Shown here piece after piece: positions 1 through 30,551 of a stretch of DNA of 40,546 nt. This stretch comes from a virus: the IMG/VR virus record IMGVR_UViG_3300025697_000053, positions 1 to 40,546 of that record; one strand, given 5' to 3'. Position 1 is the first letter of the stretch. Every line of letters starts with the position of its first letter. Made by a program: the position numbers and the translations under genes. Below the pieces are notes generated by a model. The model saw only the letters and a program-made list of their open reading frames with translations, ran no database searches and was not told the DNA's origin.

Positions 1-1158
1 CTGAACGGCTGGGGCCCCGTCTCCTCCGAAGTTTACGGGTGGGCGGCAGGCGACTACTCCGGCACTGAGTATGCTTACTACTCCACTGCCGACGGCATGG
101 TCATCAGAGGCACGATCTACGCTGACGATGGCTACCTTACCAATCTTGATGTCGTGGGTATACTCAACATCTCCACCAGTGGTGTCTTGAAGTCGGGGGC
201 TACTGATTATGCGGTGGGTACGGGCTTCTGGATGGACTACAACGCGGGCAGCCCTCGCTTCTACATAGGGTCAGCGTCTTCTTATTTCAAGTATGCCGCA
301 GGGACTGGGGTAATCATCCGGGGCCAGCTTGAAGCTGACACCGGCTATCTCAAGCAGCTAACCGTAAGTGGGGCGCTCACCATCTCTACTGATGGCGTCT
401 TGAAGTCTGGGGCAACAGCCTACATGACGGGAACGGGCTGGTGGCTGGACTATAACGCTGGAACGCCTCGATTCCGTATAGGGAATCCCTCTGCTGACTA
501 TCTACGTTGGGGTGGCACTAACCTCGAGATCGCAGCGGGTGGCGGCGGCCTGACTATTGGGGCAGGCGGTCTAGTTTGCGACCTGAATGACGGCATGACC
601 ATCGAGACTGATAAGACAGATGGCAGCACCCTGAAACGACTACGCTTCCTCTCTAACGACCGAGCGCTGTTGCAGGGCAACGTCTTCTTGCACCAATACT
701 CAACTGATCCGACGCATACCCGAATGCTCATGAACCACTGGGATGACACGGTGTCTGGTGCAGGAGTGGGCCCAACGAACGTATTCGCTTCGGAGATATG
801 GGATGCGGTCAACCCCAAGCGGTTGATTGGCGCTTACTCCAGTCCAGCGGTGGGAAGCGACCAGGGAACGCTCAAGTATGCCATCTCGACAGACGGTTCT
901 GCGATTCATCCTGATTTCACGTCAGGCGAGACTACCTTCGGTATAGCGGGCCTTGACTGGATGGCTTGCGTAGTAGAGAAGGAAGCTAACCGATCTCACT
1001 TCTACCTCAACGGAAACATCATCAAAGTAGTACTGCCAAAGACACCGGCGTCCGCGGCGGCGACTGGCGTTACAGGGAGTTGGTGTTGGGACGCCAACTA
1101 CTTCTACGTTTGTGTCGCTACGGATACCTGGAAGCGCGTAGCGCTATCAACATGGTAA
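1..1158 (+). CDS. Tail fibre / tail-tip protein, 3' part (5' end outside window)
   Basis: The frame is open from base 1 with no start at the edge, so this is the C-terminal 385 residues of a longer protein; the Met codon at 97 is internal. It contains two related units about 71 residues apart, each with GVLKSGAT, a G-T-G-(F/W)-W-x-D-Y-N-A-G core and P-R-F-x-I-G. Such repeats are common in the distal part of phage central fibre and host-specificity proteins. A glycine-rich stretch (AAGGGGLTIGAGG) follows, then a beta-rich C-terminal domain of about 190 residues with no motif I recognise. The role in host contact is inferred from the repeat style and from its position before the cohesin/dockerin genes near the 3' end of the late operon. 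A short gap and a strong ribosome site lead into the next gene. Confidence 0.75.
   Translation: MNGWGPVSSEVYGWAAGDYSGTEYAYYSTADGMVIRGTIYADDGYLTNLDVVGILNISTSGVLKSGATDYAVGTGFWMDYNAGSPRFYIGSASSYFKYAAGTGVIIRGQLEADTGYLKQLTVSGALTISTDGVLKSGATAYMTGTGWWLDYNAGTPRFRIGNPSADYLRWGGTNLEIAAGGGGLTIGAGGLVCDLNDGMTIETDKTDGSTLKRLRFLSNDRALLQGNVFLHQYSTDPTHTRMLMNHWDDTVSGAGVGPTNVFASEIWDAVNPKRLIGAYSSPAVGSDQGTLKYAISTDGSAIHPDFTSGETTFGIAGLDWMACVVEKEANRSHFYLNGNIIKVVLPKTPASAAATGVTGSWCWDANYFYVCVATDTWKRVALSTW
109..528 (+). repeat. Two tandem fibre repeat units, 213-bp period
   Basis: The coding sequence repeats with a 213-bp period: GVLKSGAT is encoded near 181 and again near 394. The DNA copies have diverged while the protein motif is kept, so this is an old duplication within the fibre gene. 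More units may lie upstream of the window. Confidence 0.7.
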
Positions 1159-1187: not shown

Positions 1188-1526
1188 ATGGAAACAAAAA
1201 TCAGGAGACTAGAGGGGACCGAACTGACTACGTTGCTCGCCTTGGCTTTTCAGCGTCAAACAGCGGCAGACAAAGCGATGAAGGCACAACAGCAGGCGAT
1301 GCGGCTGACAGCTGCTATGGCTTCTCTTGCTCAGACCTTTGCTGTGGTGTCCGGCGAGCCAGCGGAGAACAAACACGACTTCCTTTGGGAATCCAGCCCA
1401 GGCCAACAAGATGAACCTATGGCTTGGCTGGTCAGACTGGAAGAGGAGAAGCCTCAAGCTAAACAACGGGGACGAAGACGAGCTCGGCCAGTCAAACAAA
1501 ACGAGGAGAAAGTACGAGAATGCTGA
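1188..1526 (+). CDS. Small basic-tailed protein of unknown function (112 aa)
   Basis: The start at ATG 1188 is chosen because AGGAGGGAAGGAAAC lies directly before it; an open frame extends further upstream but overlaps the fibre gene. Residues 1-60 look helical and rich in Ala, Gln and Met. The C-terminus is strongly basic (QRGRRRARPVKQ). No signal peptide, membrane segment or recognised domain is visible. Its stop overlaps the start of the dockerin gene, so the two are probably translationally coupled. A role as tail accessory protein or chaperone is possible from position only. Confidence 0.7.
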   Translation: METKIRRLEGTELTTLLALAFQRQTAADKAMKAQQQAMRLTAAMASLAQTFAVVSGEPAENKHDFLWESSPGQQDEPMAWLVRLEEEKPQAKQRGRRRARPVKQNEEKVREC

Positions 1527-4204
1527 TAACAACAAGTAAAACAAGGCGATATTCTGCCTTGTTTCTAGCAGCAACGCTTTTCGCTCTGCTTGCACTCCTG
1601 GTACGACCGTACAAGATGGTAAAACCCGCTTTTGCCTCCGTGCTTACACTTCAAGAGGGGGTAGACGGATACGCGGGTACGACTGATAATTTTCTAGATT
1701 CTTGGGCAATGACAAGCAACTGGGGGGACAGTGTCTATCTTAAAGTCCGTCACGCTGATATTAGGAAGCCCGTCATCAAGTTTGACCTTACTGGACAAAT
1801 CCCCGATAACTCTACTATTAATTCTGCGACCTTAGCCGTTTACGCTATTGCTCGATCTAATTCGAATTCCCTTACTGTTGGGTCGTTTAAGATCTTACGG
1901 TCGTGGGAGGAGGGAGAGTCAACTTGGGCAAAAGCTAGCACAGAAATAGACTGGGGGACAGCTGGGTGCAACAACACCTCTACTGACCGTGAAGCTACAG
2001 CATCTTACACTACAACGCTCGCCACTACCGGTACATGGTTTGAGTGGGATGTGACAGATATGACGCAAGATTGGGTGGACAACCCCACCAGTAACAAGGG
2101 TATTGCCCTGATGTATGTCACATCTAGCGGCAGTGTAGAGTATATGGGGATATCAAGTGAGCACCCAAACCTAGCCAAACGTCCCAAGCTAACGATTGAC
2201 TACACCGACCCCTCTACTCCCACGCCAACGCCAACCGCGGGCCCCTCTCCTACCCCTACTCCCACTCCTACCCCAACACCTGCACCCGGCCCTTCTCAGG
2301 GCAATGAGCCAGTATTGGGTCTGATCCAAGCACGGGCTTGTTGGGGTGTTCTTACTTACGGAAGTTGTAATTTTGCGTCTCAAACCGTGGATGGGTATCA
2401 GATCGATCTCACCTGGGACGTTGCAGATGGCGCGGGGGCAAGCATTGCTCAGCTAATCAAAGATATAAGAGCAAACCGAACGTGTGGGCCGAATAGCGAT
2501 CACGAGTGCTATGTAACCTTGACAATTTGGCCCATTAACTACGATAGCGGGGTAAACACTGCCCGCATTCCTGGTAGCTGGACTACGTATAACCTAACTA
2601 CTTGCACTGGCGAAATACCGGCGTTTGACGCCGTTGTGGGGTATCAGGGCAAGCTCGTAACGTCAATGACAGCCATCAAGAACACGCTAACTGCTGAGGG
2701 GGCGTTACCAGACGTTGTTTATGTTAGTGATGGCGTTTACGGGGAAAGCGCACCCTTCCGCGGTGGTGCTTGCGCCACATCGGGCTGTGACTACGACTGT
2801 TGGCGAGGGCGTTGGAAGACATATGTCCAATGGGCTATGGAGGCTTACCGAGATGTCTGGGGTAGCGACATGCACCTCATCTGGCAGGGATCTCACATGT
2901 ACCTCTGGGGACCGGATCTTGAAGAAATAGGAGACAAGGCACAAGCGGAGGAGATTGGTTGGCAGGGAAACGGCTGGGGCGGCCAGTACAGCCCTCCCAC
3001 TTACATCGGAGAGGCGCATGACGCAGTCATCTGGAAAGACAGTGGGGCGATTCGGACTGGCAAGTATCAAGAGTACGAAGATCAAGAGGGGAACGTCCCG
3101 CTTGGTTCTGAACCCAAACACATCGTGGGGGCTGAGCGTGAAGCGATCGAGCTAATTTCTTGGATGGCGTCTTATCCCAACAACGTCTACAACGTCCAGA
3201 AAGAGAACTTGACTGCGTTTGAAAGCTATGATACTCCTAACGGGGAGCACTACGAAGACGTGTTCACCCGACTTACCAAACCTGAGGAGAGTATTGCCTC
3301 TTCTGCCTTATACGCATTTTGTCATCCCCACCGAGCAAGAGCGGGTTATAAGGGAAGTTCCACCCTTCGTAGCGTTGGCTGGAGCATGTGGCCTGGAGCT
3401 GAGGACTACACTACTCTAACGGGCGACGATGATGAGCGGTTGAATATCTGTCGTTGGTTAACGCAGACCACTGACGGCAAACCAGCAAGGATGGCATGCA
3501 AACCTTTTCATTATGGCTTCGTTGCGGCTTCACCGGCGATCGATGGCTATTGTCGTATCCCACCGAATGGCGCTGGGCCCAATTTTGACCCCGGATGGAC
3601 AGAGGCAGCGAGGAGCTTTTTCAACTGCGACCCCGCAGGTGCGGGGGGTTATTCCAAGTGCAGCGCGGCTACTCTGACGGGCCTTTACACGATGAATTTC
3701 TGGCATGTCAAAGACAAAGATGGCGACGATTGGCCCTTAGGGTTCACGACCAGCCTAGCTGGAGTTGGTTATACTTCTACTGTTACAGCCACTTTAGTTT
3801 ACACAGGGAGCGGCGGAAACGTAAGTGTGGCGAATTGTGGCAATACAGATCTCGTAACGGTAACAACGTGGACAGAGACAACTGTTGGCCCGTGGACATG
3901 CTCAAAAAAGCCAGGGGATCTACAAGTTACAGCTCCTTCGGGAGGCGAACTTCTTGTAGCCCATATCGAGATAGAAGTAAGTCGTCCACAAGCATACTCT
4001 CCTTACGACTTTGACTGTGATTGCGACATCGACGTTGTGGATATCATGAAGATAGTTGCTCGTTGGGCTTGTGAATGCGGCGATGATTGCTACAACTCTC
4101 TTTATGATCTTGACGATGATTGCGACATCGACGTTGTGGATATCATGAAGATAGTTGCTCGTTGGGCTTGTGAATGCGGAGAAGCATGCTATGATGACAC
4201 CTAA
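1520..4204 (+). CDS. Secreted CBM96-like / glycoside-hydrolase-like / dockerin protein (894 aa)
   Basis: An N-terminal signal peptide is visible: basic KTRRY, a hydrophobic run at about 13-28, then a likely cleavage after AFA at residue 39. Residues 41-231 look like a DNRLRE/CBM96 carbohydrate-binding domain (ESTWAKAS, W-x-T-A-G-C, DRE). A Pro-Thr linker follows at about 232-260. Residues 265-820 form a large domain of unknown function; its VVYVSDGVYGES strand (about 398) is reminiscent of TIM-barrel hydrolases, but I cannot name a family. The C-terminus holds two dockerin-type EF-hand repeats: DFDCDCDIDVVD (from 830) and DLDDDCDIDVVD (from 863), each followed by IMKIVARWACECG. Calcium ligands at loop positions 1, 3, 5, 7, 9 and 12 are acidic; the usual Gly at 6 is Cys. 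The next gene encodes a cohesin, the known partner of dockerins. A signal peptide on a late phage protein is unusual. Confidence 0.8.
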   Translation: MLITTSKTRRYSALFLAATLFALLALLVRPYKMVKPAFASVLTLQEGVDGYAGTTDNFLDSWAMTSNWGDSVYLKVRHADIRKPVIKFDLTGQIPDNSTINSATLAVYAIARSNSNSLTVGSFKILRSWEEGESTWAKASTEIDWGTAGCNNTSTDREATASYTTTLATTGTWFEWDVTDMTQDWVDNPTSNKGIALMYVTSSGSVEYMGISSEHPNLAKRPKLTIDYTDPSTPTPTPTAGPSPTPTPTPTPTPAPGPSQGNEPVLGLIQARACWGVLTYGSCNFASQTVDGYQIDLTWDVADGAGASIAQLIKDIRANRTCGPNSDHECYVTLTIWPINYDSGVNTARIPGSWTTYNLTTCTGEIPAFDAVVGYQGKLVTSMTAIKNTLTAEGALPDVVYVSDGVYGESAPFRGGACATSGCDYDCWRGRWKTYVQWAMEAYRDVWGSDMHLIWQGSHMYLWGPDLEEIGDKAQAEEIGWQGNGWGGQYSPPTYIGEAHDAVIWKDSGAIRTGKYQEYEDQEGNVPLGSEPKHIVGAEREAIELISWMASYPNNVYNVQKENLTAFESYDTPNGEHYEDVFTRLTKPEESIASSALYAFCHPHRARAGYKGSSTLRSVGWSMWPGAEDYTTLTGDDDERLNICRWLTQTTDGKPARMACKPFHYGFVAASPAIDGYCRIPPNGAGPNFDPGWTEAARSFFNCDPAGAGGYSKCSAATLTGLYTMNFWHVKDKDGDDWPLGFTTSLAGVGYTSTVTATLVYTGSGGNVSVANCGNTDLVTVTTWTETTVGPWTCSKKPGDLQVTAPSGGELLVAHIEIEVSRPQAYSPYDFDCDCDIDVVDIMKIVARWACECGDDCYNSLYDLDDDCDIDVVDIMKIVARWACECGEACYDDT
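4019..4179 (+). repeat. Exact 62-bp duplication inside the dockerin coding region
   Basis: Positions 4019-4080 and 4118-4179 are identical over 62 bases, offset by 99 bp (33 codons). They encode the two Ca-binding loops and the IMKIVARWACECG helices. Perfect identity at synonymous sites points to recent duplication or gene conversion. Confidence 0.9.
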
Positions 4205-4215
4205 AGGAGAGATTA

Positions 4216-5229
4216 ATGGCTGTTGCTACGGTGCGTATTGACCCTCAAGCCTCCTATGCGGACATAGATGACACCTTCAATGTGGAAGTATGGGTAGACT
4301 ACGCGGAGGATTTGGGTGGCTTTGAGTTCCAGATGTCCTATAGCTCTAACATTGTCGAGGTACAAACAGCCGTGCTAGGGGCTTTTCTAGGAAGCACGGG
4401 ACGGTCTTCAGTAGCATTGGGCCCCAACATCGATGGCCCGATGGGGGTTGTACGATTCGGGGGCTATAGCGTTGGCAGCCAGGCGGGAGCCAACGGAACG
4501 GGGAAACTTGCCACCATCACTGTCAAAGCCGTAGGCGATGGCACAACTGTTCTTCAGTTGTTCGGTGTTGAGATGCTCGGCACAGATTCAGCACCCCAAA
4601 GCACGACTGTTGAGAATGGCAGTATAACGATAGGCGGCTTGGTTTCCTATCGCCACGGAGAGAACTCTTACACCGGTGGAGTTGACACATATCTGTACTC
4701 TGCTGCCCCTACTGCCAACTATAGTGGTAACCGGCTTATAAATGTTTTATGGTCGACGGACCAATCCGCCGACGTAGTTGGATTGGTTGATTTCCACGAT
4801 ATCATAGATCTAGTCGGCACTACTATTCTGTGGGCAACATTGGAATTTTACGTCTACGATGTCAACCCCATCGGCAGCGACTTTTTGATCTCCGTTTCTG
4901 CCGTTCGTCGTCCTTGGGTAGACACAGAAGCTACTTGGGAAAAAGCCGCAACGTCTGTCTCCTGGGCACTAGGTGGTTGCCAGCACGTCCCTCTAGATAG
5001 GGAGGGAGAATCCTTAGTTGTGCCTAATGTTGAAGGGTCCCTGCAAACAGCATATGTCACCGACATTCTCCAGGGATGGGCCAGCGGAGAACCACAAGAA
5101 GGGTTTCTGCTTCAAGTTTCACTCGGGACCTGTGAGGGTGGCCTGGTTTATCATGCTTCCATTTGCTCAAATGATCAAGCAGTTGTAGGCCACCGACCCA
5201 AACTAACGATCAAGTACGCAATACCCTAG
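4216..5229 (+). CDS. Cohesin + CBM96-like protein (337 aa)
   Basis: Residues 1-140 match the cohesin fold pattern: V-R-I-D-P at the start, then D-T-F-N-V-E-V-W-V, LGGFEFQMSYSS, LGAFLGSTGR, a G-P-x-x-D-G-P-M-G-V-V-R-F-G-G segment, and GTGKLATITVKA. Residues 145-337 form a second DNRLRE/CBM96-like domain (TEATWEKAA, W-A-L-G-G-C, DRE, HRPKLTIKY), related to the N-terminal domain of the preceding protein. There is no signal peptide, so it may be virion-bound or released on lysis. The start follows AAAGGAGAGATTA, 11 bp after the dockerin gene. In known systems cohesin binds dockerin with high affinity; pairing of these two is inferred from adjacency. It is the last gene before a convergent hairpin. 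Confidence 0.85.
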   Translation: MAVATVRIDPQASYADIDDTFNVEVWVDYAEDLGGFEFQMSYSSNIVEVQTAVLGAFLGSTGRSSVALGPNIDGPMGVVRFGGYSVGSQAGANGTGKLATITVKAVGDGTTVLQLFGVEMLGTDSAPQSTTVENGSITIGGLVSYRHGENSYTGGVDTYLYSAAPTANYSGNRLINVLWSTDQSADVVGLVDFHDIIDLVGTTILWATLEFYVYDVNPIGSDFLISVSAVRRPWVDTEATWEKAATSVSWALGGCQHVPLDREGESLVVPNVEGSLQTAYVTDILQGWASGEPQEGFLLQVSLGTCEGGLVYHASICSNDQAVVGHRPKLTIKYAIP

Positions 5230-5253: not shown

Positions 5254-5281
5254 GACCCCGGCACTCCCCCATGCCGGGGTC
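5254..5281. terminator. Hairpin between converging operons, likely bidirectional terminator
   Basis: GACCCCGGCA and TGCCGGGGTC form a perfect 10-bp stem with an 8-nt loop. It sits between the stop of the plus-strand cohesin gene (5229) and the stop of the minus-strand gene at 5301. U-tracts are weak on both sides, so termination efficiency is uncertain, but the position fits. Confidence 0.75.
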
Positions 5282-5300: not shown

Positions 5301-5948
5301 TTACGATGCGCCCAGGTGATCAGCCAACTGCGCGATGCCGATGTGGATGCTCTTTAGTATTTCGGTGTGGGCGTATAGCGCCAATATAACCTCCTGCAGT
5401 AACGCCGCCACATCTGTTGACAGTTCCGGGTCCGGTTCTGGTGGCGGGTCTGGGCGTATGCCGGGGTCCGCCGGAATAATCTGGAATACCAGGTCGAGCG
5501 GCCCGCCGTGGTTAGTTCCCCCAAGCATCCCTATCCCGCTCACTCCATCACTGGGTAGCGATGGACTCAGCACCCAAACGGTGTGAGGTCCTCCGGTTTC
5601 GAGGTCTCCGATAAACGAGCCACTCCCCAAGCCAAAGCCGGTCACGCCGTTGTTGTCTGTGTCCTGGACACAAGCCCTGGGATACCAAAGCGACTTGGAT
5701 CGCGATTCGCGCAGATCCTGTAGGGTAGGATCAGGCCAATGGTTGGCCACAGGCTGGGTAAATTGGGGGCCCCCAGCCTCATCAAGCACCCGTACCTTGA
5801 GTACTGCGGGCCCGACGGTCTCTTGCAATCGTACCAACGCGAATTTGCGCAGGGGTCCAGCGTCTAGGTAACTCACGCTTCCGTACTTCCCCCGTAACCA
5901 TTCCCAGGATCGTTCGACGCCGTAGAAGTCGTATACTTTTGGTGTCAT
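5301..5948 (-). CDS. Unknown protein, last gene of the minus operon (215 aa)
   Basis: The start at 5948 is chosen because AGGAGACAAAAGG precedes it; an upstream in-frame Met at 5993 overlaps the 3D-domain gene. Residues 1-150 look beta-rich, with N-H-W-P-D-P, GVTGFGLGSGSFIGD and a Gly-rich SGIGMLGGTNHGG motif. A proline-rich linker (DPPPEPDPE) leads to a C-terminal amphipathic helix. There is no signal peptide. I do not recognise the family. Following the 3D-domain protein by 11 bp, it could take part in lysis or cell-surface binding, but nothing in the sequence proves this. Confidence 0.65.
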   Translation of the reverse strand: MTPKVYDFYGVERSWEWLRGKYGSVSYLDAGPLRKFALVRLQETVGPAVLKVRVLDEAGGPQFTQPVANHWPDPTLQDLRESRSKSLWYPRACVQDTDNNGVTGFGLGSGSFIGDLETGGPHTVWVLSPSLPSDGVSGIGMLGGTNHGGPLDLVFQIIPADPGIRPDPPPEPDPELSTDVAALLQEVILALYAHTEILKSIHIGIAQLADHLGAS

Positions 5949-5959
5949 CCTTTTGTCTC

Positions 5960-6400
5960 CTATTCCTTTACCAGCCAGGCATCTCCCGACCATTTACCAT
6001 ACTCGTCGATAAGCAGATCAATATGTTGTTCGATAGGGGCGAATTCCCCGTTACGGTATACCTCCTCCGCCATAGTATCAACCACTCTCCACGGCCCCGA
6101 CAAATCAGGCCGGCCAGAAATGCGCAAGATTACCAAATCCCCCCACCTAACCAACCCTCCCTTGAACCATAGCAAATCTTGTGATAGAGCACAGACTTTT
6201 TCGGATGTTTCTCGGAGATCTATGCCGCTAGCTGTCATGAATGGCGCGGCATCGGTCTGCTCCGGCACTGCCTGGTATGATGTGATCTCCACCACGCCCA
6301 ATGGTACAAGACGTCGTGCCGGTTTCCCCGGACCGTTCTCAGGAAGATAGCCGGTTATCATAATACTAACCAATAATGCGGCAACGAATAGTTTTCTCAT
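5960..6400 (-). CDS. Secreted 3D-domain protein, possible cell-wall lytic enzyme (146 aa)
   Basis: An N-terminal hydrophobic signal (RKLFVAALLVSIMITGYL) indicates export. The rest matches the 3D (Asp-Asp-Asp) domain, a double-psi beta barrel shared with MltA-type lytic transglycosylases: V-E-I-T-S-Y-Q-A-V-P-x-Q-T-D, then PFMTASGIDL, VRWGDLVIL, VVDTM and IDLLID. The conserved aspartates of the family are present in QTD, VVDTM and IDLLID. In phages, 3D domains occur in lysis or peptidoglycan-remodelling proteins. There is no lipobox Cys. The start overlaps the methyltransferase stop by 4 bp (ATGA), and the holin-like gene lies three genes upstream. No other endolysin is visible in the window. 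Confidence 0.8.
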   Translation of the reverse strand: MRKLFVAALLVSIMITGYLPENGPGKPARRLVPLGVVEITSYQAVPEQTDAAPFMTASGIDLRETSEKVCALSQDLLWFKGGLVRWGDLVILRISGRPDLSGPWRVVDTMAEEVYRNGEFAPIEQHIDLLIDEYGKWSGDAWLVKE

Positions 6401-7827
6401 ATTCCAAACCCCAGTTGGATGCCATCCTCCCGAGCAATGCGGTCGTTGGCTATCCTGATGTATTCCTGATTAATGTCCATGCCGATGTAGTGTCGCTCTA
6501 ATCTCTTGGCTACAACACCCGTTGTACCAGCCCCCATGAATGGGTCAAGGACGATACAAGGTATCGGTTCGCCAGCGTCGCAGGTGCAAGTAGGGGCCCA
6601 GCCATTTTCCGCCATTCTCTTCCAGGGAGCTCCACATTTGGGACAGCAACCCCGTTCGCTCGTACCGGCCCTAATGCATGGTTCAACGAGTGCTTCTGGA
6701 TATGACGCAAAATGCGCCCCCGCGAATGGCTTCGTGTTGATCGGCCAAATGTTCGTTTGATCTGTTTCTTCTCCAGTGAACGCAGCGGCGAAAGCAGACA
6801 TATCTACACCTTGTTGGTCGGCAAACCAAAGAAATTCAGACAGCGTGCTATCTACGCGCCATACGGACCGCTTGTTCCGACCTTTCGGGTTGCTCCCCAT
6901 ACCTCCAGGGGAACGATATGCCATTTGGTTACCCAACGTCGCCTTGATTCTTGTTTTAGCGTCGTCGTACATGCCCAAAGCTTTGCGTTTTTCCCACGTC
7001 ATCTTGGGCTGCGGCCATTTACCACAATTTGGTTCTCGTATAGCGTCCATGTCGTAATAATAACGCTTTTCTTTGCTGAACAGAAACAGATACTCATGCG
7101 CGCTGGTCGGCCTATCTGTTACGCTCTCCGGCTTGCAGTTTGGCTTCCACCAAATGATATCGCGTCGTAGATACCAGCCATCGTCTCGAAGAGCAAAAGC
7201 AACAAGCCAGGGTATCCCAACCAGGTCTTTCGCTTTCAAACCAAAATTGCCTTTTTGGGCGTTTGCCGGATAAGGAATGCCCCCGCTTTTACGTGGGTCG
7301 TGACCGCGCTTGCCACCCAGCTTTTCATTGTATATTTGCCCCGGACTGTTGGACACATAGGAATCGCCTATGTTCAGCCAAAGCGTCCCGTCATCACGCA
7401 GTATTCGGCGTACCTCTCGGAGTATTTCAACCAGGTGGCTGGCATAGAGCTGGGGCGTTGGTTCTGCTCCTAGATTTCCGCGCCACGCGCCACATAGGCG
7501 GCACGATCGGCCTTGTGATATTTCCAGAGCAACGGCGGCCGAGTAGCCCTGCTTACCTCTCGTACCAAGATCCTTACCGGAGTATTCCCCACCACCAGTA
7601 TCTCTAGTCGGACCAGTTTTCTTGAGTGTCTCATCGCCCCACTCGTGCTCACACCCGGCTTCCCCTCCCCATACCTGAGGCATAACGTTATAGTCTCGTA
7701 ATCCCCAGTAGGGAGGGGAGAGAACACACATATGGACGCAGCCATCCGGCATTTGACGCATCGTGCTCAAACAGTTCCCGGACACTATGGTGTCCTCTTT
7801 GTACGGCCCTAATCTCCCCCCAATCAT
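6397..7827 (-). CDS. Site-specific DNA methyltransferase, N4-C or N6-A type (476 aa)
   Basis: The catalytic motif IV is SPPYW (VLSPPYWGLRDY, near residue 37). The SAM-binding motif I lies near the C-terminus (IVLDPFMGAGTTG) followed by an E-R-H-Y-I-G-M-D-I-N motif, so this is a beta-class circular order. The middle has a target-recognition region and Cys pairs (CRLCGAW, CCPKCGAPW, CTC) that probably bind zinc, as in many phage enzymes of this group. Length and order are those of a complete enzyme. No restriction endonuclease partner adjoins it, so it is probably a solitary methylase for protection or regulation. It follows the metallophosphoesterase by 2 bp. Confidence 0.9.
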   Translation of the reverse strand: MIGGRLGPYKEDTIVSGNCLSTMRQMPDGCVHMCVLSPPYWGLRDYNVMPQVWGGEAGCEHEWGDETLKKTGPTRDTGGGEYSGKDLGTRGKQGYSAAVALEISQGRSCRLCGAWRGNLGAEPTPQLYASHLVEILREVRRILRDDGTLWLNIGDSYVSNSPGQIYNEKLGGKRGHDPRKSGGIPYPANAQKGNFGLKAKDLVGIPWLVAFALRDDGWYLRRDIIWWKPNCKPESVTDRPTSAHEYLFLFSKEKRYYYDMDAIREPNCGKWPQPKMTWEKRKALGMYDDAKTRIKATLGNQMAYRSPGGMGSNPKGRNKRSVWRVDSTLSEFLWFADQQGVDMSAFAAAFTGEETDQTNIWPINTKPFAGAHFASYPEALVEPCIRAGTSERGCCPKCGAPWKRMAENGWAPTCTCDAGEPIPCIVLDPFMGAGTTGVVAKRLERHYIGMDINQEYIRIANDRIAREDGIQLGFGI

Positions 7828-10374: not shown

Positions 10375-11124
10375 TTAGAGCAACGCGAGCTGCTCATGTT
10401 TGTCCCGCCGGCGTGCTTTCCAAACATACCGATGGGCGCTGACTTTACCCCAAACAACCGGATGCCCTTCGTTTTTGACGAACACCATCAACCAAGAGTG
10501 GTTACGCTTGGCGTGGCACTGGTAGTCCCACCCTACGGGTGAATGCCCGTTGCGAACCAAAACAAACAAGTCTTCGAGCTGAAAACCAAGATCTTCGACG
10601 CGTTCTTTTAGATTGAATAGGGTCCAATACTGCCTAGCCGACTCTATCGCCCCTTGGCATTTGACAAACAGAACACCGTAGCGTCGCAGTATTCGGTATG
10701 CCTCTCGTATTCCTGCGAGGTAGAAGCTTAGCACATCATCTACGCTCTTGAAGGTCGTCGTCCCCAGCGTTTGGTACTGTTCGTTCATGCTCCTAGCTAG
10801 ATCCGACATCTTTTGACGAGAATGCCCAGTTGAAGACAGGTAAGGCGGGTCGAACACCACACCATCAAAGACGCCATCAGCAAAGGGAATGTTGACGCAA
10901 GACGACTGCAGATCGATACCTGGTAGGGGCATGAAATCGTTGCGTATTATCCGGTACTCCTGCTCCAGGTCTGGGGTCCAAAAGTTCCCCTTTCCCCAGG
11001 TAACATCAACCACTTGCGACGCCGAAGGGAGGTAGATTCGTAAGGCCCCGGGAAAGATGTCGTCGTTGTTCCCTTTTACTGCTGTCAGTATCGGTTGGCC
11101 TGTTAGTGTTTTTCTTTTTCGCAC
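10375..11124 (-). CDS. DNA methyltransferase with DPPY motif (249 aa)
   Basis: The catalytic motif is V-F-D-P-P-Y-L near residue 92; the SAM-binding strand is VVDVTWGKGNFW near residue 40. The fold and length fit a solitary N6-adenine or N4-cytosine DNA methylase. A GTG at 11145 gives a frame seven codons longer, but the phage-type promoter -10 ends at 11151. A transcript starting 7-9 bases downstream would miss that codon. GTG at 11124, with AAGGGGG 10 bases upstream, is therefore preferred. It is the second DNA methylase in this operon. Confidence 0.75.
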   Translation of the reverse strand: MRKRKTLTGQPILTAVKGNNDDIFPGALRIYLPSASQVVDVTWGKGNFWTPDLEQEYRIIRNDFMPLPGIDLQSSCVNIPFADGVFDGVVFDPPYLSSTGHSRQKMSDLARSMNEQYQTLGTTTFKSVDDVLSFYLAGIREAYRILRRYGVLFVKCQGAIESARQYWTLFNLKERVEDLGFQLEDLFVLVRNGHSPVGWDYQCHAKRNHSWLMVFVKNEGHPVVWGKVSAHRYVWKARRRDKHEQLALL

Positions 11125-11150
11125 TGACGAATCTACCCCCTTCACTATTT

Positions 11151-11185: not shown

Positions 11186-12280
11186 CTACATCTCGTGTAG
11201 GCTTACACGACGTCCCGGGAACATTACATGGTCCTCGTAGTTTGGGCCTGTTCGCGCCATAACGACCGGGGCCCCCGTAGCTTGTTCGACTTTTGCGATG
11301 AAACTACGGGATTCCCGCGATAGCTGCTCGGGTAGTTGACATCCCAGATCCACGATGTTCAACCAGTCCAGGTAGGTTACCACGATGGCAGTGGGTCCAT
11401 TAAGCTGAGATGCCAGGCGCAGCTCTTGGAAGGATACTTCAAATGGGCGCTCGATACCCCCGGCATCTTGTCCTGCAGATCCCCCTTTTGTTTGCCGGAT
11501 TTGCTCGAATGGCCTTCCTGCTCGTTGGCAAACCTCCCGCCAGGTGAGCTCTTTCCCTAGAGACGGCCCGCTGTTGCCGGGGACCCGAGTCGGTACAGCC
11601 TTGACGACCATAATGACATTTCTGGCGTCCCTCCAGCTCAAGCCAGCATCTGACAGAGCTCCCATGGCCGTGACGTTGCGGCTGGTACAATAAGGATAGT
11701 AGCCATGATCAAGGCTAAGCATCGTACCTTGGCTACCCTCTACCAGGATGCTTGTTCCGTGCAGCGACAAAAGCATTCGCGTCACATCGACCACAAAAGC
11801 GCCAGGGATTTGCTCTATGTGGCGTCGTACGTCCTTGGCTAGAAGACATGAACCATCTCGTCTTACCTTGGCAGCCATAGTAGCCCCGACCCCCAAATGC
11901 GTCGAGCCCCTATCTGCTGCAGCCTCCTTGCCGGACTCCCGTAGGTCTTCTGTAATCATAGCGCAGTGTTCATCAACCCAGATCCTACGGCCTGTTGCCC
12001 CCCAACTCTCCCATTCCCGCGCCAGGCTTGCGGGGTTGAACGTCATTCCCGGGGCTAGGATGGGTGTGGCCATATCTGCGTCTCGTGATGCCATCGCGGA
12101 TGGCACGATGTGGAAGGTATGCTCCCTTCCGGCTTTCGTACGTACGCGGTGTTCTGCGTTCTCCCCACCGGTTCGGATATAGAAATCGTAGGGATAGTTG
12201 TCAGCTAACCACAGGGCCACTGCCCCTTTCCCCTCGTCTCCGTACTGGCCTCCAACTACCACGTCTACTGACGTATTCAT
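11186..12280 (-). CDS. purA: Adenylosuccinate synthetase family protein, PurA/PurZ-like (364 aa)
   Basis: The start at 12280 has AGGAGG upstream and puts VVVGGQYGDEGKG at residue 7, the family's phosphate loop. H44 in GGENAEH matches the catalytic His of PurA; GSTHLGVGA, VEGSQGTMLSLDHG and PTRVPGNSGP are further family motifs. At 364 residues it is shorter than bacterial PurA (about 430) and near archaeal PurA and phage PurZ. PurZ makes the 2-aminoadenine (Z) precursor from dGMP. D15 keeps the PurA catalytic Asp, which as I recall is Ser or Gly in described PurZ. TYLD (302-305) keeps the Asp used to recognise GTP in PurA. It may therefore act on IMP, or be a GTP-using PurZ0-like intermediate. 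It follows helicase, primase and a family A polymerase. Confidence 0.85.
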   Translation of the reverse strand: MNTSVDVVVGGQYGDEGKGAVALWLADNYPYDFYIRTGGENAEHRVRTKAGREHTFHIVPSAMASRDADMATPILAPGMTFNPASLAREWESWGATGRRIWVDEHCAMITEDLRESGKEAAADRGSTHLGVGATMAAKVRRDGSCLLAKDVRRHIEQIPGAFVVDVTRMLLSLHGTSILVEGSQGTMLSLDHGYYPYCTSRNVTAMGALSDAGLSWRDARNVIMVVKAVPTRVPGNSGPSLGKELTWREVCQRAGRPFEQIRQTKGGSAGQDAGGIERPFEVSFQELRLASQLNGPTAIVVTYLDWLNIVDLGCQLPEQLSRESRSFIAKVEQATGAPVVMARTGPNYEDHVMFPGRRVSLHEM

Positions 12281-12296
12281 GTTTGCCCTCCTCAGG

Positions 12297-13268
12297 CTAG
12301 AAATCCAACTCTCTGCTAGTAAACCGCATCTTTCTGGGGTCAAAGTCCAGGGGAAACATCGCCCCAGCGTTGCCCCATCTTTGCTTCAACACCTGCGCCA
12401 CAAACAAACTATCATCTGCGTCTGTGCCAGCATTCCCCAGATCGATAAACTCCCCTTTCATGTACAACCCCGGCTTTGTGAGAGCTAGCACTTTGTCGCT
12501 CGTTTGTTCGATAACCGACGTCCACTGACCATCTCCGATCCGAGGAATCTTCAACCCCCGGATATCGTCTACTTGCCGACCCGCCTGAACAGCTACCACG
12601 ATGGTAACGTCATGGCGTAGCGCCATGCTCTTTAGTATCTCCAGATTGGCAGAGACGATAGACACCCGATCCTTACCCCACCCAGTCAGCTTTCCCCATT
12701 CCGGTATGCGTTGGAGATAGTCCACAATGACAAGCTGAACATTATACTTGGCTTTGATGTTCTGGAGTGCTTGGTCCAGCTCTCGTAGCGATGGGACGAA
12801 CTCCGGGGACATGGCGCCCCTGCCAAAGGGTAGGATGTTCTTCCAAGCATAACCGGTCTCTTCGGTCCAACACGCTTTGGCGAACTCGGTGGGGTCGGCC
12901 ATTCCGCGGCCTATGTCGCCCAGGGTACAGCCGGTCGCCTCAACTGCGCAAAGGCAAACCAGCTCTTCGACCCGGGTTTCCCAAGTAGCGAATACTGTCC
13001 AATCTTCTTGCCCTTTGGGTAGCGTATCAGCCATGTGTAGGGCCAGGTGGACGCAGAACGACGTCTTGCCGTGCCCAGGTCGTCCCATAACGGCTATCAA
13101 TTCGCCGGGTCTCATGGGAATGAGATAGTCGTCAAGGGTCTTGATGCCCCATGTCGCTATCGATCTTGGGTCAGCACGATGCTCTATTTCCCTTCTGGCA
13201 ATGAACATAGCCTGGTCCGGGGCGTAGAGATAGTTACTAAAATCGAGATCCCTCTTCATCTGAGCCAT
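12297..13268 (-). CDS. DnaB-like replicative helicase, RecA-fold ATPase (323 aa)
   Basis: A Walker A motif (GRPGHGKTS) lies near residue 62 and a Walker B motif (L-V-I-V-D-Y-L-Q) near 182. F-A-T-W-E-T and the late V-A-V-Q-A-G-R-Q sensor segment fit the C-terminal ATPase domain of DnaB/gp4-type helicases. The N-terminal primase-interacting domain of full-length DnaB is missing or very short. The start follows GAGGTAAAGC and overlaps the primase stop by 13 bp, suggesting coupled synthesis of helicase and primase. Confidence 0.9.
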   Translation of the reverse strand: MAQMKRDLDFSNYLYAPDQAMFIARREIEHRADPRSIATWGIKTLDDYLIPMRPGELIAVMGRPGHGKTSFCVHLALHMADTLPKGQEDWTVFATWETRVEELVCLCAVEATGCTLGDIGRGMADPTEFAKACWTEETGYAWKNILPFGRGAMSPEFVPSLRELDQALQNIKAKYNVQLVIVDYLQRIPEWGKLTGWGKDRVSIVSANLEILKSMALRHDVTIVVAVQAGRQVDDIRGLKIPRIGDGQWTSVIEQTSDKVLALTKPGLYMKGEFIDLGNAGTDADDSLFVAQVLKQRWGNAGAMFPLDFDPRKMRFTSRELDF

Positions 13269-14202: not shown

Positions 14203-14646
14203 CTAGGCATTCGATCCGGTACTACCAAAGCCTCTTCTTCCTCGCTCTGATTCGTCCAGATCGTTGACGCATTCCACGGGGAAGACACATGCAGGAACAA
14301 GTATGAGCTGGGCGAACGCCGCGCCGCTGTCCACTCGGTAGACAGCTTTGCTGCCATGCTGATCTCCCATGTACCACACATAGACAAACAGCTTGCCCCG
14401 ATACCCGGCGTCGATGACACCGGGCAAGACGATTAGCCTCCCGCCTCTGTTTGCCCAAGAGCGAGCGATGACCAACCCCCAGTATCCCGGGGGTATCTGA
14501 ACCCGGATATCTGTGGGGATTACTGCCATCTGGCCTGGATGGAGCCAGACTGCCTCGTTGGCTTTCAAATCGTACCCAACATCCCCTAACAGCTTTGGCG
14601 CGCCCAACTGGGAAGAAGTGGTGCGCAATGTCTCTGTTGTTATCAT
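14203..14646 (-). CDS. dut: dUTPase / dUTP diphosphatase family (147 aa)
   Basis: The five dUTPase motifs appear in order: V-G-Y-D-L (1), A-R-S-W-A-N-R-G in place of GRSS (2), LPGVIDAGYRGKLFV (3), F-A-Q-L-I-L-V-P (4) and RGRRGFGSTG (5). It hydrolyses dUTP to dUMP and keeps uracil out of phage DNA. The altered motif 2 also occurs in dCTP-deaminase relatives, but motif 3 is typical of dUTPase. The start at 14646 has GGAGGAAGA upstream and overlaps the polymerase stop by 4 bp (ATGA). Confidence 0.9.
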   Translation of the reverse strand: MITTETLRTTSSQLGAPKLLGDVGYDLKANEAVWLHPGQMAVIPTDIRVQIPPGYWGLVIARSWANRGGRLIVLPGVIDAGYRGKLFVYVWYMGDQHGSKAVYRVDSGAAFAQLILVPACVFPVECVNDLDESERGRRGFGSTGSNA

Positions 14647-16352
14647 TCTTCCTCCGTAACGTCCAGCTTGATATCTACATTCATAGGGATCCGAGGCGAG
14701 ACCATTTTCAAGATCCGCTCGGGTACAGCGGTTTCCATAATGGCAACAGCCCGACGGCACACGTCATCGATATCCCCGCTCAGTACTTCCAAAACGATAG
14801 AGTCGTGAACCTGCGAGACGATGCGGGCTTCTGGTATCTGGGCGTGTATGCCCAACATGGCGGTCTGCATGACACATGCCACTGACCCTTGGATTAGTTG
14901 GTTGAATGCCTTGTAAGAGCGGTGCTTTATGTCGAAGGGAGAAGCAAAGAGACGGCGACCTGATGATACAACCAAATAGCCTCTTTCCACCCACCGACTT
15001 TCCGCTGATTTGGTCACTTGTGCAAACCGAGGGAAACGTTGTCGGTGGAGCTCCATAACTTCTTTTGCTTGCTTTATGGTCAAGCCAGATGTCGCAGCCA
15101 GGCTTCTAGCCCCTATGCCGTACAGAACAGCAAAATTGGCCCTCTTGCCTCGGAAACGGTACTCTTTAGCTTTTTCGTCTCCGTACATGATTCGGGCAGT
15201 CTCTAGGTGGGGATCTGCGTTTGGGTCTGTGAAGATCTTCGCCATCGCGGTTTCCCCCGCGTACATGGACGCCAACCTCAGCTCCGCTTGGGCGTAGTCC
15301 AGCGATACTAGCGCTTTTGTCCTTTTACCAGGAGCGAAAAGCTTCATTGTCCGAGGTATGGCTTGCGCGTTCGGGTACTGGCAAGTCAAGCGCCCCGATA
15401 CTGTTCCCCCGGGCACAAAAAGCGGATGCACCCTACCGTTGTCGTCGGCCTGGTCTCGCAACCCATCCAGCCAGGTGGAGAGCGATTTCCGAATATGTCT
15501 TCCTCGGAGCACATCGGTTATGACGGATGCCACTTCGCCTTGGTGGTAGGCTTGGATTTCTCGCAGCACGCCCTCGTCCAGCTTGTCTCTGCCTGTTGAT
15601 GTCTTCTCTTCCAGGAGGCATTCCTGAGACAACAGATACAGTCGTAGCTTCTTGTTGTCTGTTGCTCCGAGTATTTGCACAGACATTAGCCGGTTGTTTA
15701 TAGTGTCCAGCTCGGCGTTTTGCTCTTCGGTAATTCTTGCGATAGCCGGGAGGTCGATAGCTATGCCGGACACCCGCATTTGGGCTATCAGCAGGATGAA
15801 GTCCCCCTCGGCTTGTAGCCACTCCTTCGAATACAAGGACGTGGCTTCTTTGTGGATCTGCTCTGCCAGGAGAAGAGTGTTTATCGCGTCGTTTGTGCCA
15901 TACTCCAGCACAACATCAGCAGACAGCTTACCCAGCTTCTTTCGCTTTCCTTTCATGCCCCGCCATTGATCTGTGCCAATGCCGTATCGATCACACAGCT
16001 TCGACAACGATACACTCTCTCTAGAGTCGGTGTAGCGAGCTGTCACCATGGTATCAAAAATGCGGCCTTGGCACAGATCCTCGTTCAGCACACCAATGCG
16101 GAGCAAATAGGGGAGGTCGAACCCGGCGTTGTGGAAAGCCAGCCAGTCACGAGACTTGGTAAGATCCCGTAGCCAACCGAATAGCTGGGGTGTCGTGCAG
16201 GGGGAGTTGAACAGGTCTCTCATTCCAACATTTAGTGCTTCTCCTCTCACGTCGCCCCCTTCGTCACGCCATGCCACGGATACTACTAGCAGCTTGTCGC
16301 TATACGTCAGCCCCGTGGTCTCGATGTCGATTGCCAAGATACGTTCTGGCAT
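14643..16352 (-). CDS. Family A DNA polymerase with 3'-5' exonuclease (569 aa)
   Basis: The exonuclease domain shows D9 and E11 (A-I-D-I-E-T-T-G), FHNAGFD (D79) and Y151-x3-D155. The polymerase has GGTVSGRL (about 316), motif A S-L-D-Y-A-Q-A-E-L (D352, E357), motif B R399-x3-K403-x3-F407-x3-Y411, and motif C Q-V-H-D-S (D517). Ser replaces the usual Glu after the motif C Asp. There is no 5' nuclease domain, as in T7-like and Z-phage (DpoZ) polymerases. GGAGGACATA precedes the start. It leads a block of polymerase, dUTPase, primase, helicase and PurA-like genes and is surely the replicative polymerase. Confidence 0.95.
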   Translation of the reverse strand: MPERILAIDIETTGLTYSDKLLVVSVAWRDEGGDVRGEALNVGMRDLFNSPCTTPQLFGWLRDLTKSRDWLAFHNAGFDLPYLLRIGVLNEDLCQGRIFDTMVTARYTDSRESVSLSKLCDRYGIGTDQWRGMKGKRKKLGKLSADVVLEYGTNDAINTLLLAEQIHKEATSLYSKEWLQAEGDFILLIAQMRVSGIAIDLPAIARITEEQNAELDTINNRLMSVQILGATDNKKLRLYLLSQECLLEEKTSTGRDKLDEGVLREIQAYHQGEVASVITDVLRGRHIRKSLSTWLDGLRDQADDNGRVHPLFVPGGTVSGRLTCQYPNAQAIPRTMKLFAPGKRTKALVSLDYAQAELRLASMYAGETAMAKIFTDPNADPHLETARIMYGDEKAKEYRFRGKRANFAVLYGIGARSLAATSGLTIKQAKEVMELHRQRFPRFAQVTKSAESRWVERGYLVVSSGRRLFASPFDIKHRSYKAFNQLIQGSVACVMQTAMLGIHAQIPEARIVSQVHDSIVLEVLSGDIDDVCRRAVAIMETAVPERILKMVSPRIPMNVDIKLDVTEEE

Positions 16353-25387: not shown

Positions 25388-25723
25388 CTAGTCTCCTCGC
25401 CCCGGCCATTGCGGTTCGTCACAGGGCGGGTCTTCCACCGCAAAATTGCTCGGAATCTGTGCTATGAAGCGTATCAACCCCGCGAGCTCTTTTCCGTGTT
25501 TTGCCAAAGCTTGTCGAACGGAAAGGAAACGGGGTGCGTACAGCCAGTCTGGGACCAACATTCCCCAGTCGGCTATTTCTTTCTCGGCATAAGCCAGCTT
25601 CGTCTCGGCTTCGGCAATCCTCATAAGTGCGTGTAGGCGGTGGGCTTCTGCTGTCTTGGCTTTCATCGCATCCCCTTTTGCTACGACACGATCGAATACT
25701 ACATACTCTGGTTTACCATTCAT
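25388..25723 (-). CDS. Unknown helical protein (111 aa)
   Basis: ATG 25723 overlaps the upstream gene by 11 bp; a TTG at 25732 is a possible earlier start. GAGGAG lies 10-12 bases upstream. The centre looks helical (AEAHRLHALMRIAEAETKLA) and the C-terminus is Pro-rich. No family recognised. Confidence 0.6.
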   Translation of the reverse strand: MNGKPEYVVFDRVVAKGDAMKAKTAEAHRLHALMRIAEAETKLAYAEKEIADWGMLVPDWLYAPRFLSVRQALAKHGKELAGLIRFIAQIPSNFAVEDPPCDEPQWPGRGD

Positions 25724-26285
25724 TATAATCAAACTCCTCTTTTCCTATGTCTTCAAGGATCTTTGCGATTTCTTGAGTGCTCTTCTCTTTGACTTGCCCG
25801 CCACGGGCTTTCATATTGACATAGCGTTCTACGATGGTTTCTTCTGACATGCCTTGCTCTAACCGGCGCTTGACGGCTTGATAGATGCCTTGGTCCTTCT
25901 TCACTTCGTCAAGAGGAACGGCGGTTATCACAGTGAAAATAGAGCGGGGCGAGTAAACGTCAAAGCGTTTTCGTCCGGCTGTCTGTTCAGCGACAAGCCA
26001 CTGCATGCGTTCGATTACCCGATCCGCGCTCCCAAGCTCTTCGAGACACTCCTTTGCGACCTTGACCCAGTACAGCCGTTTTCCCCTGGAACGGGGCGGC
26101 GCGAGGTTGAAGAGCTGGCCAAATTCCTCCAGTATTCTGATAACGTCTACGCCGTAGCTCCTCCAGGTGGAATATCGATACTTCTCGCTTTTGTTGTGGA
26201 ATTTTCCGAGAGCGGCAAGGATTTCAGCATCTCTTGAGCCTCTTCTGTTGATTTCTGTCTTTCCTTCGTCTCTTCCTTGTGCCAT
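25713..26285 (-). CDS. Unknown charged protein overlapping the initiator gene (190 aa)
   Basis: ATG 26285 with GGAGG 11 bases upstream is the best start; no later Met keeps the folded part. The protein is helical and charged, with Y-S-T-W-R-S-Y-G-V-D-V-I and YSPRSIFTVITAVPLDEVKK. It overlaps the winged-helix gene by 139 bp in another frame. It may be a replication accessory (helicase loader or initiator partner) judged by place only. Confidence 0.6.
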   Translation of the reverse strand: MAQGRDEGKTEINRRGSRDAEILAALGKFHNKSEKYRYSTWRSYGVDVIRILEEFGQLFNLAPPRSRGKRLYWVKVAKECLEELGSADRVIERMQWLVAEQTAGRKRFDVYSPRSIFTVITAVPLDEVKKDQGIYQAVKRRLEQGMSEETIVERYVNMKARGGQVKEKSTQEIAKILEDIGKEEFDYNEW

Positions 26286-26890
26286 AAGATGTTCACCCTC
26301 CTCAGGTTTGGTATTCCCCAACAAACCGTCTCTCCGGGTATTCGTTCCAGTCTCTCAAGTAAGCCCAACGCAGATAGCCGGCCAAACGATTGTCGTACTC
26401 CACTCGGGTTTCGTCCCAGAAAATCAGCAAGCCAAACCGTGCCTCGATGATAAATCTCGTATGCGCCCCCTTCCTTGTACTGTCCTTTGGTCTGGACAAG
26501 AACGCCCAAGAGCGTGATGCGGTCCCAGGTCGAGAGCAACTTCAGCTTCACGACTATTTGCGGTATCTTTGCCCACCCTCTTTTCTCCCCACTTTTGACA
26601 ACGATGGTGTGGTATCCCCAATTACCAGTCGGCGCGGGTTGCAACCATCGTTTCACCAAACCAGCTTCCTCTAGTTGCTTGTGGGCGCGGCTAACAGTTC
26701 CCGTAGCTTTTCCCAGCTCTCGTGCTATCGTGACGTGGGACTTACAACAAACATTGCCCCCGGCCCAACCACAAAAGAAGACGTACAGCAAAGCGGCGTG
26801 CTGGCTAATACTTCCTTCTCGCAGGTGCGCCCACATAGAATCCGGCACCCGGGCATAACGGTCGAATTTGAAGTCTCTAGCATCTCCCAT
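26147..26890 (-). CDS. Winged-helix replication initiator-like protein (247 aa)
   Basis: Residues 17-85 form a winged helix of the HTH_36 type: S-Q-H-A-A-L-L-Y-V-F-F, then V-T-I-A-R-E-L-G-K-A-T-G-T-V-S-R and L-E-E-A-G-L-V-K-R-W. Residues 130-200 look like a second winged helix (LADFLGRNPSGVRQSFGRL). Two such domains are typical of phage replisome organisers and plasmid Rep proteins. Its gene starts beside 22-bp repeats that could be its iterons. It is the first gene of the minus operon, behind a phage-type promoter with AGGAGG in a leader of about 10 nt. Confidence 0.7.
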   Translation of the reverse strand: MGDARDFKFDRYARVPDSMWAHLREGSISQHAALLYVFFCGWAGGNVCCKSHVTIARELGKATGTVSRAHKQLEEAGLVKRWLQPAPTGNWGYHTIVVKSGEKRGWAKIPQIVVKLKLLSTWDRITLLGVLVQTKGQYKEGGAYEIYHRGTVWLADFLGRNPSGVRQSFGRLSALGLLERLERIPGETVCWGIPNLRRVNILWHKEETKERQKSTEEAQEMLKSLPLSENSTTKARSIDIPPGGATA

Positions 26891-26908
26891 TCGTTCCTCC
26901 TATCCATC

Positions 26909-26938
26909 ACATTTCTCGAAGATGCCCTGAACGGAGTA
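26909..26938 (-). promoter_or_regulatory. Phage-type promoter of the minus operon
   Basis: TACTCCG (26932-26938), 15-nt spacer, AGAAATGT (26909-26916), then GATGGATAGGAGGAACGA and the ATG of the initiator-like gene. Confidence 0.85.
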
Positions 26939-26953
26939 CCGAGAAGACAACAA

Positions 26954-27008
26954 ACGCGCACCCGACATTAGTCTTACGCGCACCCGACATTAGTCTTACG
27001 CGCACCCG
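26954..27008. repeat. 22-bp tandem repeats (2.5 copies), candidate iterons
   Basis: Two exact 22-bp units starting ACGCGCACCCG lie at 26954-26975 and 26976-26997; a third, partial one (11 bp) lies at 26998-27008. Further ACGCG boxes occur at about 27104-27128, and a 10-bp AAGAGAAAAC-type repeat at about 27025-27048. The region lies between divergent promoters beside the initiator-like gene. The 387-bp gap 26891-27277 has no supportable gene. Confidence 0.8.
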
Positions 27009-27197
27009 GTAGTCATAGATACTAGAGAAAACAAGAGAAAACAAGAGACCCGCCGTGAGTACAGGCGAATGTCATCAAAAGCCCAAAACCGAAAAGCAAA
27101 CGCGGCATACAAACGCGATAACGCGCATCAACCGGTGTTCGCTGGCAGCTAGGTTCTCTAGAGTTGCTCCGGTCCCGCCTCCGAGCTCGCTGGTAAG

Positions 27198-27227
27198 TAC
27201 TCCGCCAGATGCACAGCAGAGAAATGT
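27198..27227 (+). promoter_or_regulatory. Phage-type promoter of the late plus operon
   Basis: TACTCCG (27198-27204), 15-nt spacer, AGAAATGT (27220-27227), then AGAAAATAG. It faces the tRNA-Trp and terminase genes and is divergent from the copy at 26909. Confidence 0.85.
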
Positions 27228-27277
27228 AGAAAATAGACAGGGGAGGCGTGACCAAGAAGGGAAATGCCCAACAACAT

Positions 27278-27349
27278 AGGCCGGTAGCCTAATCGGCAGG
27301 GCAACGGTCTCCAAAACCGTAGATGCAGGTTCGACCCCTGTCCGGCCTG
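27278..27349 (+). tRNA. tRNA-Trp (anticodon CCA)
   Basis: A 7-bp acceptor stem (AGGCCGG with CCGGCCT), D arm, anticodon arm ACGGT-CTCCAAA-ACCGT with CCA in the loop, short variable loop and T arm with TTCGACC form a full cloverleaf of 72 nt. The 3' CCA is not encoded. It lies between the late promoter and terS and would be cut from the late transcript. Phages often carry tRNAs that match their codon needs; Trp is frequent in these proteins. Confidence 0.92.
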
Positions 27350-27401
27350 TCAAACCACCGTTGGAAGCGCTTCCACTAACACGCAATGCGAGAGTATACT
27401 A

Positions 27402-29895: not shown

Positions 29896-30116
29896 AAGAC
29901 GGAATGGAACGAGCAAACGGGCTGGCAGAGGAGACTATGGATTTTTTGGGTGACGCAGTGGAATCGCTTCTTGATTTCTTCATTACGGTGGTGGCGGGGC
30001 TGATCGTCCTGTTCGTCCATATAATAATGAGCGTCATAGGCTTCATCCTCAGCTTGATATTCAGCTTTGTGGGGCTAGTCTTTGACGTCTTTGACGTGTT
30101 CGACGGTGCGCGGTAG
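29892..30116 (+). CDS. Small membrane protein (74 aa)
   Basis: The ATG overlaps the preceding stop by 4 bp and GGAGGGGG lies upstream. Residues 1-25 are acidic and helical; 30-70 contain a long hydrophobic region that could cross the membrane twice. Unknown function; late expression suggests a role in lysis or assembly at the membrane. Confidence 0.6.
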   Translation: MKDGMERANGLAEETMDFLGDAVESLLDFFITVVAGLIVLFVHIIMSVIGFILSLIFSFVGLVFDVFDVFDGAR

Positions 30117-30403: not shown

Positions 30404-30540
30404 AGACTGTTACCACACAGGGGCAGATGCAAGAGGTAGCTAGACTGCTAGGCATCATTCTGCGCTTGACTTTGCGGACAACATATCTCGGCTTGAAAGA
30501 GCTTGCTCAGTGGGCCTACAAGAAGATCGCCAAACGGTAG
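30400..30540 (+). CDS. Small basic protein (46 aa)
   Basis: ATG 30400 follows GGGGGGAGGAAAGCT and overlaps the upstream stop by 4 bp. It is basic and amphipathic (LLGIILRLTLRTTYLGLKEL). Unknown function. Confidence 0.6.
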   Translation: MKTVTTQGQMQEVARLLGIILRLTLRTTYLGLKELAQWAYKKIAKR

Positions 30541-30551
30541 GGGGTGTTCGC

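Follow-up and report, generated by a model that had tools for sequence, protein, structure and literature searches.

A phage gene pair encoding a secreted dockerin protein and a cohesin protein without a signal peptide

The window analyzed here, that is, the whole 40,546-bp IMG/VR virus record IMGVR_UViG_3300025697_000053, carries two adjacent genes whose products bear the two halves of the cohesin-dockerin connector. P1 (1520..4204, + strand) is an 894-residue protein composed of a signal peptide, a DNRLRE/CBM96 domain, a PT linker, a domain of about 560 residues without a family, and a dockerin. P2 (4216..5229, + strand) has 337 residues and consists of a cohesin followed by a second DNRLRE domain, without a signal peptide. 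Few known protein connectors are as strong as the cohesin-dockerin interaction, which has been described from cells. From sequence comparisons, we infer that P1 and P2 are cognate partners, and we consider the chances about even that the main function of the locus is the coupling of this pair outside the cell.

The two genes and their phage context

The late genes of the phage lie on the + strand and include terminase (28019-29350), portal (31174-32640), and head genes; with the start of the window, the late set ends at 5229. The early genes occupy the - strand from 5301 to about 27386 and encode methyltransferases, a PurA/PurZ-like synthetase, a helicase, a primase, a DNA polymerase, and a topoisomerase. 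Between these convergent operons is a G+C-rich hairpin, GACCCCGGCA...TGCCGGGGTC (at about 5254..5281), which likely marks the end of the late transcript. Several other genes merit a record. The PurA/PurZ-like synthetase (11186-12343, -) matches the adenylosuccinate synthetase model at 7e-58 and PurZ at 2e-44, both below the cut-offs, as well as phrog_1211 at 1.6e-55, and its gene is near that of a family A DNA polymerase (14643-16352); a 2-aminoadenine (Z) genome is therefore possible. The two DNA methyltransferases of the early operon are encoded at 6397-7827 (-) and 10375-11145 (-). In the late operon, a NosD/beta-helix-like repeat protein (39219-40193, +; 8e-8, below the cut-off) is possibly a capsid decoration or fibre.

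A related phage, C1 (JAGMDA010000001), is a 60,160-bp contig in an Eisenbacteria MAG bin; it is colinear with the window, and its terminase is 89% identical. Comparison with C1 revealed that the two ends of the window are not contiguous, with approximately 10 to 13 kb (tape measure and other tail genes) absent between 40546 and 1. C1 also has a G+C-rich hairpin at the corresponding place, and its head-tail region encodes a glycosyltransferase (L113 15668-16843; phrog_2170, 5e-35). Upstream of P1, the window has the C-terminal part of a tail protein (1..1158, +; phrog_17312 tail protein, 1.2e-10; 76% identity to an 880-residue C1 protein) and a small conserved open reading frame (ORF) (1188..1526, +; 74% identity in C1). 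Downstream, synteny is anchored by a conserved phage gene on the opposite strand (5301..5993, -; 62% identity in C1).

Between the homologues of window positions 1188-1526 and 5301-5993, C1 has a single 795-residue protein (L114:6729-9116) made up of a signal peptide, a DNRLRE domain, a GH5 domain (PF00150, 4.9e-7; cellulase domain), and another DNRLRE domain. The N-terminal 222 residues of this protein share 53% identity with P1 residues 9-229, which indicates that P1 is a true phage gene with a differing C-terminal part. The middle domains of the two proteins are unrelated by sequence, and the bacterial profiles described below find no cohesin or dockerin among C1 ORFs at this locus. P1 plus P2 and the C1 protein share a common layout in which two DNRLRE domains surround a central domain, with the second one residing on the cohesin protein in the window. 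Nevertheless, P2 is not just a detached end of a C1-like chain, because its DNRLRE domain shows no particular closeness to the C-terminal one of C1 and has diverged too far to be named its descendant.

This synteny also bears on the suggestion, raised in the initial annotation as a refuting alternative, that P1 and P2 are host genes joined onto a phage contig by mis-assembly. Two observations could be read in its favor. The third-codon GC content (GC3) of P1 and P2 is below that of the other genes checked (0.50 for both, versus 0.53 to 0.67), and a second copy of the phage from another metagenome (L002, IMGVR_UViG_3300005918_003312; 99.9% identical over window positions 25413-39347) stops short of the P1/P2 region. 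However, C1 shows synteny on both sides of the locus, and the stretch of P1 that resembles the C1 protein is found in that very place, so an assembly chimera is already contradicted and highly improbable. The equally low GC3 is consistent with P1 and P2 being one unit.

P1 begins with a signal peptide (1520..1636, +) that has the n-region TSKTRR, a hydrophobic core, and a site between AFA and S. Judged by hydropathy, only P1 of the pair carries an export signal: P2 has no hydrophobic N-terminus and no signal peptide (N-terminal hydropathy of 0.41, versus a peak of 2.86 in P1). The DNRLRE/CBM96 domain of P1 (1682..2197, +) matches NF033679 at 1.2e-21, with 77.5 bits against a curated cut-off of 34, and CBM96 at 8.8e-7; it is 57% identical to the first DNRLRE domain of the C1 protein. 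The middle domain (2306..3997, +) yielded no recognized family or catalytic domain in family profile scans and no relative among 301 Chloroflexota genomes, while a looser limit gave three weak matches in 121 Chloroflexota genomes. Neither it nor P2 has a sequence match in the PDB, which P1 matched only through its low-complexity linker. A GH5 domain like that of C1 was rejected, as hhalign and blastp detected no similarity, and our suggestion that the middle domain may be an enzyme is a guess.

The P1 dockerin (4004..4180, +; 1.8e-20 with a bacterial dockerin profile) has two calcium-loop repeats, DFDCDCDIDVVD (4007-4042) and DLDDDCDIDVVD (4106-4141), each a 12-residue loop followed by IMKIVARW. 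Alignment with Chloroflexota dockerins revealed the PF00404 layout, namely, two repeats and a 12-residue calcium loop with D at positions 1, 3, 5, 9, and 12; the helices after the loops are read from this alignment only. At the DNA level, the repeats (3996-4080 and 4095-4179) are 93% identical with a period of 99 nt, which suggests recent duplication or gene conversion, and they are more alike than the repeat pairs of bacterial relatives.

P2 starts 11 nt past the P1 stop codon, which is directly followed by the Shine-Dalgarno motif AGGAG (4205..4209, +). The splitting of one gene into P1 and P2 by a sequencing error is unlikely, since this motif is present and an in-frame stop occurs at 4195, upstream of P2. 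The cohesin domain spans residues 4-140 (4225..4635, +) and the DNRLRE domain spans residues 157-332 (4684..5211, +); the latter matches NF033679 at 1.7e-13 (51 bits against the cut-off of 34) and shares 27 to 31% identity with the three remaining DNRLRE domains at the locus. The initial annotation had described two adjacent genes at 1520-5229 near the 3' end of the late operon, the first for a secreted-looking protein with a C-terminal two-repeat dockerin and a CBM96/DNRLRE-like domain and the second for a protein with an N-terminal cohesin and a DNRLRE-like domain. This description holds: both ORFs are present there with good ribosome-binding sites, and their signal peptide, calcium loops, and domain matches are those given above and, for the cohesin, below.

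Family identity and pairing in Chloroflexota

The initial annotation had proposed profile searches with PF00963 (cohesin) and PF00404 (dockerin) as a check, and would have taken a failure of these searches as a refutation; judged in a single step, that is how they came out. Direct Pfam scans of P2 for PF00963, and of P1 or its C-terminus for PF00404, returned no match even at an E value of ≤10, and NCBIfam and PHROG scans recognized neither a cohesin nor a dockerin. The assignment nevertheless stood when made through Chloroflexota intermediates. P2 residues 3-140 are 41% identical (E value of 2e-30) to the Chloroflexota protein L117, which is over the PF00963 cut-off (1e-9). Similarly, the P1 dockerin is 45 to 52% identical (E values of 1e-11 or better) to dockerins of the Chloroflexota genomes G019, G289, and G192, all of which pass the PF00404 cut-off. 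The dockerins of G299 and G285 are more distant (28 to 34% matches to P1), and the tested G299 dockerin fails that cut-off.

Independent evidence comes from hidden Markov models (HMMs) built from bacterial sequences only, with eight Chloroflexota and one Eisenbacteria sequence for the cohesin and nine Chloroflexota sequences for the dockerin, most of which pass Pfam's cut-offs. Searched against 947 test sequences, these HMMs matched P2 at 1.2e-38 and P1 residues 829-887 at 1.8e-20, and there was no other match among window ORFs, C1 ORFs, or 400 shuffles. On these comparisons, the cohesin and dockerin identities are far beyond chance. AlphaFold, run on single sequences without an alignment, gave low-confidence models, with a pLDDT of 33 for P2 and 48 for the P1 dockerin. 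The negative Pfam scans could suggest that the domains merely resemble cohesin and dockerin, in that the loops would be generic EF hands and the beta-rich domain a coincidence. However, this idea is already contradicted by the transitive and independent-HMM evidence (1e-38 and 2e-20), as well as by the co-occurrence of both domains, and it is vanishingly improbable.

In Chloroflexota, the two domains occur together. Matches to P2 residues 1-141 are present in 12 of 301 genomes and P1-type dockerins in 5, all of them within the cohesin-positive 12 (Fisher P value of 4e-8; because the genomes are related, this denotes a strong association rather than an exact probability). Moreover, four of the five dockerin genomes have a cohesin gene as the immediate downstream neighbor of a dockerin gene, on the same strand and after a short gap: in G019 on L175 (dockerin 1658-2542, cohesin 2581-3273), in G192 on L177 (9567-5194, 5055-3805), in G285 on L226 (8736-6643, 6506-5499), and in G299 on L179 (8877-6307, 6243-5125). 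As read from sequence, three of the four tandem cohesin proteins have a C-terminal membrane anchor. In the fifth genome, G289, cohesin and dockerin are found within one frame of 2940 residues, and G019 has one such protein too. The order of P1 and P2, dockerin and then cohesin, matches that of these tandems. We know of no description of such a tandem cassette, in which a gene for a secreted dockerin protein accompanies one for a mostly membrane-anchored cohesin.

Connectors closest to those of Chloroflexota, terminase matches of 59% in two MAGs of this phylum, and the likeness of the phage tRNA-Trp to Chloroflexota tRNAs (up to 83% identity) together make a Chloroflexota host likely. A search of 400 Chloroflexota genomes gave no clear CRISPR spacer, and long DNA matches were mainly to tRNA-Trp, at about 80%. 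The placement of C1 in an Eisenbacteria bin may be an artefact of binning; cohesins of P2's kind are present in Eisenbacteria genomes as well.

At least two further IMG/VR records have such domains, as identified by pattern-based searches with P1, P2, the tail protein, and dockerin and cohesin alignments. L001 has DNRLRE only, in a tail-module protein that lacks a signal peptide. L183 (IMGVR_3300031707_002291; 60.8 kb), a phage contig unrelated to the window phage, encodes at 5617-6204 a 195-residue protein that consists of a signal peptide, a Pro-Thr-rich linker, and a dockerin, and nothing else. Its gene sits between the terminase (with an intein) and portal genes, and its product, added as a test sequence, matches the bacterial dockerin HMM at 5e-19. 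The window is thus not the only phage sequence with a dockerin. A profile search of the whole 60.8-kb record, which may be a fragment, found no cohesin; a dockerin with no phage-encoded partner suggests that host cohesins are the target, and the protein is possibly a free-dockerin decoy. Among isolated phages in INPHARED, tblastn gave no match to P1, P2, a Chloroflexota dockerin, a Chloroflexota cohesin, or the C1 protein, in searches that cannot detect distant dockerins.

Proposed function and alternatives

In the evenly weighted reading of P1 and P2 as a cognate pair, the P1 dockerin would bind the P2 cohesin, with the calcium dependence of the family, as a coupling pair of the kind by which Chloroflexota keep secreted proteins at their surface. 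The infected cell would export P1 via Sec in the late phase, and P2 would stay cytoplasmic until lysis, perhaps on the virion tail. Because these compartments differ, the two proteins could meet only after lysis, locking together outside the cell, either in the lysate or on a P2-bearing virion. A virion seat for P2 is possible, since the phage L001 has DNRLRE in a signal-less tail-module protein. The resulting complex would have the order DNRLRE, effector domain, dockerin:cohesin, DNRLRE, a noncovalent equivalent of the single chain of C1. Alginate is the ligand of the founding CBM96, which shares about 30% identity with DNRLRE domains (PMC9971899); by this analogy, both DNRLRE domains likely bind extracellular polysaccharide. 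The complex would then bind polysaccharide around host cells, and would also cut it if the P1 middle domain is an enzyme, so that progeny are freed or spread. Were P2 seated on the virion, P1 would become a plug-in virion enzyme.

The main alternative, which we regard as a tentative possibility, is that the partners are host proteins. The P1 dockerin would take or displace clients of host anchored cohesins, coating the infected cell (for superinfection exclusion or surface remodelling), and P2 would capture dockerin proteins of the host, either in the lysate or when the next cell is reached; binding between P1 and P2 is not required. The same lineage does have single cohesins with a signal and a C-terminal membrane anchor, of which the closest is 41% identical to the P2 cohesin, and L183, which secretes only a linker and a dockerin with no cohesin found on its record, fits host cohesins better. 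On the other hand, the phage has its own cohesin gene directly behind the dockerin gene, as in the bacterial tandems, and the Chloroflexota host is likely rather than proven. It is quite unlikely that P2 is a virion adhesin for host dockerin-bearing surface proteins while P1 is an unrelated secreted enzyme reusing the connector. P2's lack of a signal, the position of the locus directly after a tail gene, and the tail-module DNRLRE protein of L001 are consistent with that idea, but C1, whose tail gene is 76% identical, has no cohesin at the locus, and host cohesins probably already hold the cell-surface dockerins. The bridge and host-mimicry ideas of the initial annotation are both compatible with the evidence. 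A broader and unlikely generalization is that Chloroflexota phages use the host's dockerin-cohesin display as a modular socket, with progeny gaining, after lysis and by calcium-dependent coupling, an enzyme or adhesin exported by the dying cell, and other phages secreting free dockerins as decoys for cohesins on the host surface.

Comparison with known systems

We found no paper on a phage dockerin/cohesin pair in the open literature, with closed-access papers outside the scope of the search. What appears to be new is the phage pairing, the signal-less cohesin partner, and a layout common to a one-chain phage enzyme; the connector itself is already known. A phage with both connector halves shows that viruses have taken up cohesin-dockerin, and the pair makes it possible to test directly if a phage is assembled or equipped extracellularly. 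Also, the little-described Chloroflexota cassette of a dockerin and an anchored cohesin may be a phage-contested surface, and P1/P2 is a compact natural connector pair.

Bacterial cellulosomes and Chloroflexota surface proteins had been named as precedents; the Chloroflexota-type connectors bore this out, whereas the cellulosome is not the closest system. Like the clostridial scaffoldin and its type I dockerin enzymes, the phage set has a cohesin and a two-repeat dockerin connecting carbohydrate-active modules. A cellulosome, however, combines a multicohesin scaffoldin with several dockerin enzymes, and the window ORFs include one cohesin, one dockerin, no scaffoldin, and no recognized cellulase. 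Noncellulosomal cohesin/dockerin sets are found in ANME archaea, where they have been suggested to hold proteins on the cell surface; this use of the pair resembles that of the phage, but the archaeal sets are cellular and have scaffoldin-like multicohesin proteins (PMC9012536). With CBM96, the likeness is that P1's DNRLRE domain matches this family in Pfam. The DNRLRE-GH5-DNRLRE protein of C1 shares with the phage pair the locus, the homologous N-terminus and DNRLRE domain, and the number of DNRLRE domains in the set; it differs in being one chain, in having GH5 where P1 has a domain without a family, and in the absence of cohesin and dockerin. The closest precedent is provided by the Chloroflexota tandems of G019, G192, G285, and G299, which resemble the phage genes in dockerin and cohesin subfamilies, order, strand, and the secreted dockerin protein. 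Their cohesin proteins, however, bear a signal peptide, and three of the four also an anchor, whereas P2 lacks both and has a DNRLRE domain in their place.
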